A stretch of DNA of 28,904 nucleotides from a virus. The stretch lies in the IMG/VR virus record IMGVR_UViG_3300024302_000039, positions 1 to 28,904 of that record; one strand, 5' to 3'. Of this stretch, positions 23,864-28,266 are shown piece by piece; the first letter of the stretch is position 1; every line of letters begins with the position of its first letter. A model generated the notes under the pieces. The model ran no database searches and had not been told where the DNA came from. It saw nothing but the letters and a program-made list of their open reading frames with translations. Position numbers and translations under genes: made by a program.

Positions 23864-24674
23864 CTAAAAAGATACATCACTGTCATCTATTGTGATAGTA
23901 TCAATCATGTCACTTATGTCTTGAACTGTTGTCATAGTTAATGTACCATTGTATTGATGCATATCAACTAATCTCATATTCATTAACATATCTTCAGGTG
24001 TTGAGAATAGATTTACATAATCAGTAAATGTATTAGTCCCACTAGTCAAATCAGCTACAAACTTCCCAGCCTTAACCTTACCCATACCTTTGACTCCTTT
24101 GATGTTATCTGTTGAGTCTCCCTCTATAGATTGGATTAATCTATTAGTGTTAATTTCTACACTATCTAAACCTTTACTCCATTCCCACTTCTTGAAGTTA
24201 AAACATTGAGTAGGTGTTTGATGAATAATATCTTTGTCCATAGCAGATATTAAATAACCTTGATTAGCATACATGATAACTAGATCATCTGCTTCTACTA
24301 TTACATTGACATCACACATAGTTTTAATTCTTTTGTACACTAATGTCTTTAGTTCTCTAACTCTTTCTTTTAGTAACAATCCTGCTTCATCAGTTTGTTT
24401 CTTTCTACTATCTTTATACTCAGGATATATGTCATATCTAAAGTTAGTCTTAGCAGTAAAGCATAAAACAATCTCATCTACATTTGATGCTTTAGTATAA
24501 CATTCTCTTTCGATAGATTTAACTCTACCACTAAAATCAAAGTAAGCTAATTCTAAATCCCATTTATCTCTATATTTATAACAACTAAGAAAAAGAATTG
24601 AGTCAGGCGTCGATTGCTAAATTAATATTATCTTCTCTGTCTTCAGTATTCTCAAGTAATTTCGTTAAACTCAT
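23864..24674 (-). CDS. FEN-type 5'-3' exonuclease, read through a +1 frameshift
   Basis: A 269-residue protein if one base is skipped. The ATG at 24674 (AAGGAGGGG ahead) opens a 23-codon frame, MSLTKLLENTEDREDNINLA then IDA, ending at TGA 24605-24603. Skipping T24605 joins it to DSILFLSCYKYRDKWDLELA and the rest of a flap/5'-3' exonuclease: TNFRYDIYPEYKDSRK (RxxxYPxYKxxR), EADDLVIMYANQG, ISAMDKDI, then the H3TH region SIEGDSTDNIKGVKGMGKVK. The joined IDADSI supplies the first catalytic Asp. The long frame has no ATG of its own, being open from 24616, so the shift is needed for a full enzyme. It acts in primer removal and recombination. Confidence 0.82.
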
Positions 24675-24712
24675 TTTGCAACCCCTCCTTGTGTTAAATT
24701 TTGAATTTCCAT
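24671..24712 (-). CDS. 13-codon leader ORF coupled to the exonuclease gene
   Basis: MEIQNLTQGGVAK, with GGAGGTTTTAA ahead of its ATG. Its last codons contain AAGGAGGGG, the ribosome site of the exonuclease, and its TGA overlaps that gene's ATG (ATGA). This arrangement suits translational coupling. The peptide itself may have no function. Very short, so confidence is limited. Confidence 0.4.
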   Translation of the reverse strand: MEIQNLTQGGVAK

Positions 24713-24722
24713 TTAAAACCTC

Positions 24723-24794
24723 CTACTGATTTTGATTTTCCTCTAAGAGTATTTGATATACTCTTATAACTAATTCCTGTTCCCTTAAACTCAT
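24723..24794 (-). CDS. Possible 23-residue small ORF
   Basis: MSLREQELVIRVYQILLEEN and QNQ, with AAAAGGATAACC ahead of its ATG, the window's usual ribosome site. It overlaps a perfect 9-bp inverted repeat (24744-24766), so the stretch may be regulatory instead of coding. The peptide would be one amphipathic helix. Only the ribosome site and spacing support it. Confidence 0.35.
   Translation of the reverse strand: MSLREQELVIRVYQILLEENQNQ
24744..24766. promoter_or_regulatory. Perfect 9-bp inverted repeat (operator or hairpin)
   Basis: TAAGAGTAT (24744-24752) and ATACTCTTA (24758-24766) are exact inverted copies around TTGAT. They lie between the second ribbon-helix-helix gene and the exonuclease. 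There is no T-run after the stem on the minus strand (AGAGGAAAATCAAAATC), so a terminator is unlikely; an operator for the adjacent regulator is a reasonable guess. Confidence 0.5.
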
Positions 24795-24796
24795 GG

Positions 24797-25015
24797 TTAT
24801 CCTTTTATTAGACTACCAGCATACATATCTACTGCTAGATCTATGATACTTGATTGTGTTCTTCCTGTATCTTCTTGTATCCCCTTAAGTGTTTCCACTG
24901 TGTGTAATCTTAATTTAAAAGATAATTGTTTTTTATCTTCACCTTTAGGTCTTCCTATCTTCTTGTTTTCTTTACTCACGTATAGCTCCTTATAGCTCTT
25001 TTTATGTTTAGGCAT
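24797..25015 (-). CDS. Ribbon-helix-helix (CopG-like) transcription regulator
   Basis: A 72-residue basic protein. Residues 1-30 are Lys-rich with GRPKG, an AT-hook-like minor-groove motif. Residues 30-70 read LSFKLRLHTVETLKGIQEDT and GRTQSSIIDLAVDMYAG, the strand-helix-helix of the CopG/Arc class (LSFKLRLH as the DNA-contact strand, TQSSIIDLAV as the second helix). It is a second regulator of this class within 1.4 kb. A perfect inverted repeat lies just downstream of its gene. It probably represses or activates part of the replication operon. Confidence 0.75.
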   Translation of the reverse strand: MPKHKKSYKELYVSKENKKIGRPKGEDKKQLSFKLRLHTVETLKGIQEDTGRTQSSIIDLAVDMYAGSLIKG

Positions 25016-25052: not shown

Positions 25053-25364
25053 CTAGTTGCTTAGTTCAAGGATAGCTAACATACTATCTGCATCTATATC
25101 TAAATACTGATTGTAGTTAATATCTTCACTATTAGGTTTAATTTTTGCTAATTCATTAGGAATATCTTCTAATGAGATACCTTTATTCTTTTTACTATGT
25201 TTAAGCAATCCATATATAGCTCCATGAATAGTTCCATAGAAGTAATCTTGATTGTCATAGTTACTAATAATATCTTTACCAGCCATAGTATATATCTTTG
25301 GTTTATCTAATTTATCTGCTAAGATAAAATTATAATTATCTTTCTTTCTAATTACTAGTTTCAT
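25053..25364 (-). CDS. Hypothetical protein
   Basis: A 103-residue protein: [60 protein letters not shown], then an acidic end ([17 protein letters not shown]). A short beta sheet followed by a helix is likely. I recognise no family. It overlaps the pentapeptide-repeat gene by four bases (ATGA type) and is followed by a 37-bp gap before the regulator gene. Confidence 0.55.
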
Positions 25365-25990
25365 TGTTTGTCCTCCTTGCTTAGTTCAATTAATAATTTT
25401 CCTTTCCATTTATCTTCATAGCAAACCTCTACAATATTAAATATAATAGGTCTAAATTTATTCCACCACTCTAAAGCACCATCATCCATTTCTGCTATCT
25501 CTTCATCACTAAAGCTTTTCCACTCTTCTATCTTATGTCTTCGGCATCCTATCTGCAAGGTATCAAGTGTAAATCCTATTTTATAAGTATCAATTTGCAT
25601 TGTCCTCAATTCCTTCATATTTCCACTTGCTAACAGATTAGCACCTCTTAGATTAGCACCTCTTAGATTAGCACCTCTTAGATCAGCCTCATATAAATTA
25701 GCACCTCTTAGATTAGCCTCATATAAATTAGCACCTCTTAGATCAGCACCACGTAAATCAGCATCTCTTAGATTAGCACCTTCTAGATTAGCACCTCTTA
25801 GATAAGCACCTTCTAGATTAGCACCTCTTAGATTAGCACCATGTAAATCAGCATCTCTTAGATAAGCACCATGTAAATCAGTACCGTTAATAACCGCTTC
25901 TATTACTGCTTCTTTGACTGTATCTTTTTTGCTTTCAAAAATTACTTCTAATGAAAATCTATTTTTTATTTGTATCATCTTATTCTCCAT
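25361..25990 (-). CDS. Pentapeptide-repeat protein with C-terminal domain
   Basis: A 209-residue protein. Residues 37-121 are 17 tandem pentapeptides of the A(N/D)LxG type ([20 protein letters not shown] and similar) that fold as a right-handed quadrilateral beta-helix of about four coils. The C-terminal 85 residues ([55 protein letters not shown]) form a domain that follows pentapeptide repeats in several phage proteins. Some pentapeptide-repeat proteins mimic DNA and bind gyrase, but nothing here proves that. The coding DNA is itself a near-exact 15-bp tandem repeat. Confidence 0.88.
25628..25882 (-). repeat. 15-bp tandem repeats encoding the pentapeptides
   Basis: Seventeen 15-bp units in register with the protein repeat. 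Several are identical or nearly so (plus-strand consensus TTAGATTAGCACCTC and variants with TCAGCATC or ATATAAATTAGC), indicating recent unit duplication and a likely site of copy-number change. Confidence 0.85.
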
Positions 25991-26002: not shown

Positions 26003-26230
26003 TTATTTATTAGGACTAATATATTCAACCCAACCATCTCTTTCTGTACAGTAATCATTTATATCTTCATCAATATTACCATTACCTCTAAATCTCTTAT
26101 ACTTGTCACACCAATAGATATACTCATCATCAAAGGTATCACTATTTAAACTCCAATGTTCTAACCTAAATTTCTTGTTAGGATTAAGAACCATACTTAC
26201 GATTGTTTCTTCTAATTTTAATTTCTTCAT
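26003..26230 (-). CDS. Hypothetical acidic protein
   Basis: A 75-residue protein: MKKLKLEETIVSMVLNPNKK, FRLEHWSLNSDTFDDEYIYW, CDKYKRFRGNGNIDEDINDY. The Trp/Tyr/Asp-rich middle (EHWSLNSDTFDDEYIYWCDK) suggests a small globular domain. Its ATG overlaps the upstream gene's stop (TAATG), so the pair is translationally coupled. No family recognised. Confidence 0.55.
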   Translation of the reverse strand: MKKLKLEETIVSMVLNPNKKFRLEHWSLNSDTFDDEYIYWCDKYKRFRGNGNIDEDINDYCTERDGWVEYISPNK

Positions 26231-26421
26231 TATTCATCTCCCATTATTCTGTCATCTTTCCATTCATCATAAGCTCTACATTGATATTCACTTACATAGC
26301 ATTCATAAGCTTCATTGAGCCATTCATCTTGTTCATCATTTGTTAAATCATTATCAATTAGAAATTCATCTAATTCCTCTAATCCATATTTTACACAATA
26401 CTCTTCATAATCTAATGTCAT
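26230..26421 (-). CDS. Small highly acidic protein
   Basis: A 63-residue protein: MTLDYEEYCVKYGLEELDEF, LIDNDLTNDEQDEWLNEAYE, CYVSEYQCRAYDEWKDDRIM. It has a strong negative charge with three Cys, in the size range of phage DNA-mimic or inhibitor proteins, though this is only a composition-based guess. AAAAGGATAAACA precedes the ATG. The structured element at 26443-26606 lies directly upstream and could control it. Confidence 0.55.
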   Translation of the reverse strand: MTLDYEEYCVKYGLEELDEFLIDNDLTNDEQDEWLNEAYECYVSEYQCRAYDEWKDDRIMGDE

Positions 26422-26442
26422 TGTTTATCCTTTTCTTTAATT

Positions 26443-26606
26443 AATACCCTAAAGAGAATCTATATGGTTGCAACATACCTGTACTTATTCCCCGAATAGT
26501 ACAAAAAATAATATTCCATAAGGCCGTTCCTTTCTAATTAAGCTCATTTATCCTCTGATAAACTACTGCACTGTTCTTGCATTTAATAGACTCTATTTAG
26601 GGTATT
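26443..26606 (-). ncRNA. Structured element bounded by 21-nt inverted repeats
   Basis: Arms 26443-26463 and 26586-26606 are inverted copies matching at 19 of 21 positions, without gaps (outer part AATACCCTAAA / TTTAGGGTATT). On the minus strand one mismatch becomes G-U, so pairing is better there. Inside lie a hairpin at 26481-26502 (GTAC-TATTC stem with a one-base bulge and a three-base loop) and a perfect 6-bp hairpin at 26547-26562 (TTTATC-CTCT-GATAAA). Together they suggest a folded RNA or leader upstream of the acidic gene. No target-site duplication is seen. Two tiny ORFs overlap it. Confidence 0.5.
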
Positions 26607-26624
26607 ATGTATTTAAAACTTTCA

Positions 26625-26681
26625 GATTCTTTTAATCATAGTTTTATAAAAGAATCATGGCTATGCACTGTTGCCATGATT
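26625..26681 (-). terminator. Two mutually exclusive hairpins after the DPPY methyltransferase gene
   Basis: AATCATGGC (26653-26661) pairs with GCCATGATT (26673-26681) around an 11-nt loop; on the minus strand it is followed by CTTTTATAAAAC, a terminator-like T-run. A second perfect repeat, GATTCTTTT (26625-26633) and AAAAGAATC (26648-26656), overlaps the first stem by four bases, so both cannot form at once. The position is seven bases after the methyltransferase stop. Confidence 0.6.
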
Positions 26682-26687
26682 GTGTTA

Positions 26688-27353
26688 TTAGTCTAATCTC
26701 TCGGTTGCTATATTAAAATAGCTTTCATCTAGTTCTATACCTATAAAGTCACGACCTAGATTCTTACAAGCAACACCTGTTGTACCGCTGCCCATAAAAG
26801 GGTCAATAACCGTTTGACATTCATTGGTACTATTACTGACATATAACTCCATCAACTCTATTGGTTTTTCAGTTGGGTGTATTGTCTCTTTGTTATTCTT
26901 ATATTTATGCACTGTTTTTGAACCACACTTATTTATAAATTTCGACTTTCCTTTTTTGCAAAAAATAATATATTCACAGTTTTTCATATACCATTTGTTT
27001 GGTGTAACATTTGCTTTTTCCCACACTAGCAAGTTATGTATATAGAAACCAGCATTTTCTGCTTCTTGCATCATGTCTTTTAAATTTAGTAAATTTGTCA
27101 TAAAATAAGCATGGCTATCATTTTTTAAAATATCAAAACATCTTGGCATCCATTCATTGAATTTTGGTATTTTTCCCATTAGTTGTTTGTTTTTTGTAAG
27201 TATGCCTGATGGTTTCCCTTTAGTTCCATTCTTTCCACCAGTTATTACTTTGTAAGGGGGGTCTGTTATGATTGCATCTACCACTACACCTTTAGCTATC
27301 AACTCATCCATAACAGTCAAGCAGTCACCTTTATATAAATCTATCTTACTCAT
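26688..27353 (-). CDS. Beta-class DNA methyltransferase (DPPY; N6-adenine or N4-cytosine)
   Basis: A 221-residue methyltransferase. Catalytic motif IV IITDPPYKV is at residues 28-36, target-side residues follow, HPTEKP is at 159-164, and the AdoMet-binding motif DPFMGSGTTG at 184-193, with GIELDESYFNIA after it. Motif IV before motif I defines the beta class (CcrM/MboII-like order). DPPY favours adenine N6, but N4-cytosine cannot be excluded. It is short, with a reduced recognition region. It is one of three methyltransferase-like genes here and the likely end of an upstream modification operon, since a terminator-like hairpin follows. Confidence 0.9.
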   Translation of the reverse strand: MSKIDLYKGDCLTVMDELIAKGVVVDAIITDPPYKVITGGKNGTKGKPSGILTKNKQLMGKIPKFNEWMPRCFDILKNDSHAYFMTNLLNLKDMMQEAENAGFYIHNLLVWEKANVTPNKWYMKNCEYIIFCKKGKSKFINKCGSKTVHKYKNNKETIHPTEKPIELMELYVSNSTNECQTVIDPFMGSGTTGVACKNLGRDFIGIELDESYFNIATERLD

Positions 27354-27561
27354 TACTCAATCCTTTCTCTACTACTGTATCTTCTATGCGTTTTGTTCTC
27401 TTTTCAAGTTCTTTTATTTTGTCATCTCTCTTTTTAAACTCTTTAGTCAGTTCTTTATCTATTGACTTGGCTATGGTTTTCAATTTATCCTCATCTATTG
27501 ATGGTTGATTTATCCAAAATACCACCCCGATTACAAGTATTAAAAAAGCAAAATCCATCAT
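27346..27561 (-). CDS. Small membrane-anchored coiled-coil protein
   Basis: A 71-residue protein. Residues 3-17 (DFAFLILVIGVVFWI) form one N-terminal transmembrane helix with a very short outside part, followed by a charged coiled coil (DEDKLKTIAKSIDKELTKEF, KKRDDKIKELEKRTKRIEDT). An alternative ATG one codon later changes little. It lies between two methyltransferase genes and overlaps the DPPY gene by eight bases. A membrane tether for a DNA-modification or host-takeover factor is conceivable, but no family is recognised. Confidence 0.6.
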   Translation of the reverse strand: MMDFAFLILVIGVVFWINQPSIDEDKLKTIAKSIDKELTKEFKKRDDKIKELEKRTKRIEDTVVEKGLSNE

Positions 27562-27573
27562 AAGCAGTCACCT

Positions 27574-28233
27574 CTATATAGATTGTTCATTCATACACTC
27601 CTCGAATAAATACTTATGTTCTCCTGCTTTAGTCCATTGTTCAGCCATTGCTTTTGCAATACCAGGAAAAGTTTTACTTGCTAGTTTTGCTCTTTTGCCA
27701 TCCTTAACAGTTGTACATCTTATGTCATACATCCATTTTTGCATACGCTTACCACTTGGCATATTGTGATATTCTAATTCTGGTTCTATTTCTGTATGTG
27801 GTTTCAGATTAGGCATACCTTTTATCCATAAACAAGTTGTCTTAGTTGCTAAATCTCCGAACATCCAAGGTTGCACAATTTGACTTGGTTTTTTCCATTT
27901 AGTACTCATTATTCCCACTGGATTTTCAATAGCAATTCTTTCACAATCTGCATTTGCTATTTCCATAAACAGATCAATACCTTGCTGTTGTCTTCCATCT
28001 GCAATTTTTTCTGGAAACCATCTTGCTCCACTAACTGCTAAATGAGTACATGGTGGAAATGCTATTATCATATCCCACTTGTCTTTTATTACTTTTACTA
28101 TATCATCTTGGATGTGCCATTCAGGATGTCCTCCACTACATTCTATTATGTCGCAAGAATACGCTTCGTGACCTAGTTTTCTTAATTCGATTGTTACTGC
28201 TTGACTTTCCTCGCAAGCTACTAATATTTTCAT
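27574..28233 (-). CDS. Short C5-methyltransferase-like protein with PPCT motif
   Basis: A 219-residue Rossmann-type enzyme related to C5 cytosine methyltransferases. MKILVACEESQAVTIELRKL replaces motif I, IAFPPCTHLAVSGARWF (57-73) carries the catalytic-type Cys62 in PPC but Thr instead of Gln, AIENPVG (101-107) corresponds to ENV, and RAKLASKTFPGIAKAMAEQW (181-200) to the last motifs. The target-recognition part is very small. This phage-typical group is usually annotated as DNA cytosine methyltransferase; the altered motifs leave open a different substrate, such as a free nucleotide or another modification. The ATG at 28233 is preferred over 28263 because AAAGGA stands eight bases before it and none before the longer start. 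Confidence 0.75.
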   Translation of the reverse strand: MKILVACEESQAVTIELRKLGHEAYSCDIIECSGGHPEWHIQDDIVKVIKDKWDMIIAFPPCTHLAVSGARWFPEKIADGRQQQGIDLFMEIANADCERIAIENPVGIMSTKWKKPSQIVQPWMFGDLATKTTCLWIKGMPNLKPHTEIEPELEYHNMPSGKRMQKWMYDIRCTTVKDGKRAKLASKTFPGIAKAMAEQWTKAGEHKYLFEECMNEQSI

Positions 28234-28266
28234 TTTATTTTCCTTTGTTAATTTCTTTGTCATATT

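Follow-up and report, generated by a model that had tools for sequence, protein, structure and literature searches.

What kind of element occupies 164 nt between two phage genes, bounded by long inverted arms, and does it act as DNA, as RNA or as the code for very short proteins? The question arises in a 28,904-nt stretch of viral DNA (IMG/VR record IMGVR_UViG_3300024302_000039, analyzed whole and called the window below), which is part of the genome of an uncultured tailed phage. In a related contig of 37.5 kb, 99.9% identical to the window across 21 kb, the terminase, portal and major head genes occupy one strand and the other strand holds a long early/replication block. The element sits in this block, on the minus strand, between a DNA methyltransferase gene and a small acidic gene, both also on the minus strand. 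The closest large-terminase relatives among described phages are less than 30% identical, and a primase search of genomes, seeking the host, gave no relative. The flanking features are these:

26688–27353, minus strand: N6/N4 DNA methyltransferase gene (PF01555, E 2.7e-36), upstream of the element, an exchanged cassette.
26428–26434, minus strand: Shine-Dalgarno sequence AAAAGGA of the downstream acidic gene, outside the closing stem and the fold.
26230–26421, minus strand: gene for a 63-aa acidic protein, downstream of the element, without a known family in family searches.

The 21-nt terminal arms claimed in the preliminary description were found exactly in place, at 26443–26463 (plus strand) and 26586–26606 (minus strand), complementary at 19 of 21 positions. 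A single pattern matches both arms and nothing else in the window, and their repeat is the strongest of the nine inverted-repeat pairs listed for it. The setting in a 266-bp gap was also borne out, although the surrounding operon is gene-packed only in part, since a simple list of open reading frames gives other gaps of 302, 374 and 417 nt. Each shuffled sequence was scored by its best 21-nt arm pair with the arms at most 200 nt apart; when the whole window was shuffled (first-order), 7 of 600 sequences (1.2%) reached at least 19, whereas shuffles of the 266-nt gap gave a maximum of 18 (in 3 of 4000) and never 19. The repeat by itself is modestly surprising for 28.9 kb and clearly unexpected within the 266-nt gap. 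These counts bear on the possibility that the element is a functionless relic between exchanged gene cassettes, its palindrome being partly chance: the whole-window frequency leaves room for it, but the chance is below 1 in 1000 within the gap alone.

When the sequence is read as RNA, a 180-nt fold of the minus strand reaches -48.1 kcal/mol (z = -4.85, with none of 200 shuffles as good) and that of the plus strand -38.2 kcal/mol (z = -4.07). After correction for G+C the minus-strand fold of the element is among the three best places in the window; stretches inside genes at about 4801 and 15061 fold as extremely, so fold energy alone is no proof of function. From these predictions, a region of about 165 bases between the two genes probably forms, as a section of the messenger RNA, a long closed stem that encloses smaller hairpins. 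The arms had been described as enclosing two more hairpins; inner hairpins are indeed predicted, but there are three of them, together with an inner helix of 8 pairs. The predicted parts, in the order of the minus-strand RNA except that the two arms of the closing stem (P1) come first, are:

26586–26607, minus strand: 5' arm of P1, 22 positions including one flanking pair, with 21 pairs and one U/C mismatch.
26442–26463, minus strand: 3' arm of P1, given by the pattern match, the inverted-repeat list and the predicted structure.
26469–26581, minus strand: helix 2 (26573–26581 with 26469–26478), 8 pairs stacked inside P1.
26541–26567, minus strand: hairpin of helix 3, with a UUUAUC/GAUAAA core.
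26520–26532, minus strand: short AAGG/CCUU hairpin, which covers the AAGGA preceding a 19-codon reading frame.
26479–26504, minus strand: hairpin of helix 5, whose loop holds a G/U transversion between the window and its relatives.

In a 340-nt fold, which takes in a wider context of the message, P1 has a mean pairing probability of 0.985.

Relatives were collected through the acidic protein, through DNA patterns and through a nearby 385-aa protein. Eight further IMG/VR contigs, all from the same phage group, contain the element at one syntenic place and with 96–100% identity; a ninth contig ends inside it, and one of the contigs bearing it is 99.99% identical to the window across 14 kb. Among them are four distinct versions of the element, with six variable sites within the 164 nt. 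Three of these sites lie in helices (C/U versus G in P1, A/G versus U in P1, and A/G versus U in helix 3) and all three changes leave a G-U pair in the minus-strand RNA, where the plus strand would give A-C; such an outcome for three of three transitions has a chance of about 1 in 8. Both transversions fall in hairpin loops and the one remaining site is unpaired. The helix 3 hairpin shows both kinds of change, as A-U becomes G-U in one relative and the loop differs by a transversion, while helix 2 is invariant and for that reason lacks comparative support. P1 forms on the minus-strand RNA a near-continuous duplex of about two turns that is kept in all four distinct sequences. Overall, 216 of 216 cells are paired (100%) compared to 35–45% in slid controls, the structure having been derived from the same sequences. 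Additionally, the folding energy weakens across relatives from -38.2 to -26.3 on the plus strand and from -48.1 to -40.1 on the minus strand. The preliminary view that the arms pair better as minus-strand RNA, where 20 of 21 positions pair including one G-U, is strengthened by these relatives. A search for covariation had also been proposed there, with a lack of compensatory changes counting against the fold; no compensatory double changes in helices were found, in relatives that at 96–100% identity are too similar to give this comparison power. Identity to the most diverged relative (L009) amounts to 96% for the element, 90% for the acidic gene beside it and about 84% for the pentapeptide gene; compared to the other relatives, the element is 97% and the shared genes 97–98% identical, so the element is no better conserved than they are. 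As a separate observation, the pentapeptide-repeat protein (25361–25990, minus strand) has strong internal repeats that vary between relatives.

Since the pairs are kept as G-U on the minus strand and would become A-C on the plus strand, the changes point to an RNA of operon sense. Though modest, they are the strongest evidence available on the mechanism, and they speak for folding of the minus-strand RNA more than for a DNA palindrome or the ends of a mobile element. The latter explanation, in which a miniature mobile element bounded by terminal inverted repeats would have landed in the 3' end of a gene for a 41-aa protein, had been raised as mobile-element remains on first inspection. It would account for the 21-nt arms at the ends and for the truncation of the gene that precedes the element in some relatives. 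Nevertheless, there is a single copy per genome in one syntenic place, and neither the window nor the searched parts of two relatives contain dispersed arms; homology extends about 26–30 nt past one arm and about 17 nt past the other, no target duplication was seen, and the changes are strand-asymmetric. A related contig (L051) has another gene at the place and offers no clean empty site. This origin is consequently disfavoured, and we consider it highly improbable.

Beyond this phage group the element appears to be narrowly distributed. Searches of near and distant INPHARED phages and of PLSDB plasmids for similar DNA gave nothing significant, one exact 23-nt pattern had no match in GTDB genomes, and a covariance model run over 25 loci recovered the known copies only. 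The exact two-arm pattern finds only the window in IMG/VR because the relatives differ from it by single bases. Matches to the core pattern in two loci (L031 and L032) and to the arm pattern in two others (L048 and L050) were rejected as chance, being unrelated sequence without the second arm. The element is absent beside methyltransferase relatives at 67% identity or less.

What the contigs with differing flanking genes share is a block somewhat longer than the element:

26425–26637, minus strand: gene-end remnant ATTAAAAGAATCTGA (26622–26636), the element, and the ribosome-binding region AAAAGGATAA.

Upstream of this block stands either the methyltransferase, as in the window, or the gene for the 41-aa protein (L030:7302–7427 and the same place in L005, L010 and L049), whose last codons the window retains as ATTAAAAGAATCTGA. 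Downstream comes either the acidic gene or a 61-aa gene followed by the acidic gene. The block is thus retained while the genes on both sides change. The 41-aa protein has its relatives in a phage family of 73–86 aa (found, for example, in Salmonella phage Jersey), but it lacks the C-terminal half and stops early exactly where the block begins. In L051 a different gene follows the methyltransferase and the element is not at that place. Given this absence and the exchange of flanking genes, the element is an accessory module in a gene-exchange region, not essential to the phage group. It is in this region that the relic explanation finds its other support, since the element adjoins a gene-exchange hot spot, next to the remnant codons and to the point of truncation of the 41-aa protein. 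On the other hand, the direction and placement of all the changes fit the minus-strand fold, and the element is kept at 96–98% in compact phage genomes. A relic is for these reasons judged unlikely, yet it stands as a serious rival to a functional fold.

Two observations concern the same region. Methyltransferase cassettes are swapped upstream of the element between the window (26694–28263) and L005, L027, L030 and L051, and their junctions fall in conserved gene ends and starts. In the window type only, the methyltransferase is followed by a second hairpin (26639–26695, minus strand; AATCATGGC/GCCATGATT, then CTTTTAT) that resembles a weak terminator and fails the terminator scan.

A scan of the region detected no terminator-like site, and promoter-like sites did not exceed the shuffle background. 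An intrinsic terminator (a G+C-rich stem followed by a T run) was rejected, as no site appeared in the scan; AATTAAAGAAAAGG comes after the 3' arm. Without promoter or terminator signals of its own, the element most simply belongs to the operon transcript. The same scan weighs on a further possibility, that of a stable small RNA acting in trans on host or phage messages. Such a molecule would be consistent with the closed, compact fold (about 165 nt) and its conserved unpaired stretches, yet no terminator-like site or promoter excess accompanies the fold, and a separate promoter would hardly fit into the 40 nt shared upstream. Production by processing is still conceivable, and a trans-acting RNA is on balance improbable. 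As to its identity, the lack of a match to a known RNA family was confirmed: Rfam gave none at gathering score and only chance matches at E up to 10. A riboswitch or other known Rfam family was rejected in the absence of any significant covariance-model score, and the region contains no tRNA or tmRNA.

The reading that we tentatively prefer, and to which we give somewhat less than an even chance, is that of a structured, cis-acting intercistronic RNA in the early polycistronic message of the minus strand, with the closing stem acting in cutting, protection or insulation. A two-turn RNA helix has the size that RNase III prefers, and as P1 measures about two turns, a role in cutting, protecting or insulating the message seems most likely. 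We infer that the closing stem serves as a double-stranded cutting or blocking site, and an RNase III site, one of the options named at the outset, would be the most economical reading of its anatomy (21 pairs, one mismatch and about two helical turns). If RNase III cut in P1, an internal RNA of roughly 120–140 nt would be freed and the downstream message would begin at a new 5' end 20–30 nt before the Shine-Dalgarno sequence, by which the downstream small genes may be uncoupled from the exchangeable upstream methyltransferase cassette. Alternatively, without cutting, the P1 stem may shield the message against 3'-5' decay or act as an insulator between the two genes. The earlier suggestion of a leader that controls the downstream acidic genes holds in part only: the Shine-Dalgarno sequence is left free by the fold, which makes it unlikely that the next gene is switched through masking of its ribosome site, and the gene that follows the fold in six relatives is a different small one.

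The RNase III sites of the T7 early message are short local hairpins of about 60 nt. Like them, the element would form an intercistronic stretch of double-stranded RNA in the early polycistronic message of a phage; unlike them, it consists of a long-range two-turn stem enclosing about 120 nt with further hairpins, and cutting is here a prediction. In bacterial pre-rRNA processing stalks, a structured RNA is closed off by long-range inverted repeats, whose duplex is available to RNase III. The element has the same long-range arrangement of repeats around a structured RNA, but it is far smaller and holds no rRNA or known stable RNA inside. The function is most likely an ordinary one, for example a cutting or spacing signal, and the fold itself is taken as real at the RNA level and of a kind known in outline. 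Should it serve in processing or insulation, this would account for a steady expression of the small downstream genes despite swapped methyltransferase cassettes, and the fold would represent a new RNA family to seek in environmental phages. Comparative genomics of bacterial and metagenomic sequences has yielded candidate structured RNAs that are conserved intergenic folds of unknown function, some of them in phage (for instance PMC2864571). The element resembles these candidates as a conserved intergenic fold, but they show covariation across diverse sequences whereas it is known from four near-identical variants only.

Finally, the region might encode a leader peptide or else very short proteins, one or several. 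Three operon-sense frames with an ATG are available:

26544–26582, minus strand: candidate short frame MQEQCSSLSEDK, 12 codons, whose stop overlaps the next ATG (ATGA).
26485–26547, minus strand: candidate short frame MSLIRKERPYGILFFVLFGE, ATGA-coupled to MQEQCSSLSEDK.
26460–26519, minus strand: candidate short frame MEYYFLYYSGNKYRYVATI, 19 codons, with AAAGGA 8 nt before the ATG and a TAG in the first bases of the P1 3' arm.

The AAAGGA before MEYYFLYYSGNKYRYVATI is invariant in all relatives; the variable sites of MQEQCSSLSEDK are at third codon positions in three of three cases (CAG/CAA, TTA/TTG and GAG/GAT, two silent and one E/D), and there is a single change within the last 93 nt before the stop. 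The one change inside the MSLIRKERPYGILFFVLFGE and MEYYFLYYSGNKYRYVATI frames is, however, non-synonymous in both (G/V and G/W), and relatives have lost the Shine-Dalgarno sequence that precedes the second frame (AGAGGAT to AGATGAT). For the third frame, a codon-degenerate DNA pattern retrieved the same DNA only, with no diverged coding copy, and database matches to the short frames were of no worth (best E 0.6). Coding is rather unlikely, but like the relic it is a serious rival. In its leader-peptide variant, the stop of the tyrosine-rich MEYYFLYYSGNKYRYVATI in the P1 3' arm could allow a terminating ribosome to open the stem. A bolder combination, in which the element is a phage RNA module of a new family between exchangeable genes and translation of the tyrosine-rich frame, whose end lies within the closing stem, would switch the fold and hence the downstream message, seems very improbable.

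Elsewhere in the window, the 5'-3' exonuclease frame (24380–24804, minus strand; PHROG 107) has no ATG upstream of its annotated TTG and is open to 24616. Just upstream of it, frames such as GISYKSISNTLRGKSKSVGGFKWKF resemble the C-terminal repeat of a homing endonuclease, and the start of the exonuclease may possibly reflect an endonuclease remnant or a frameshift.
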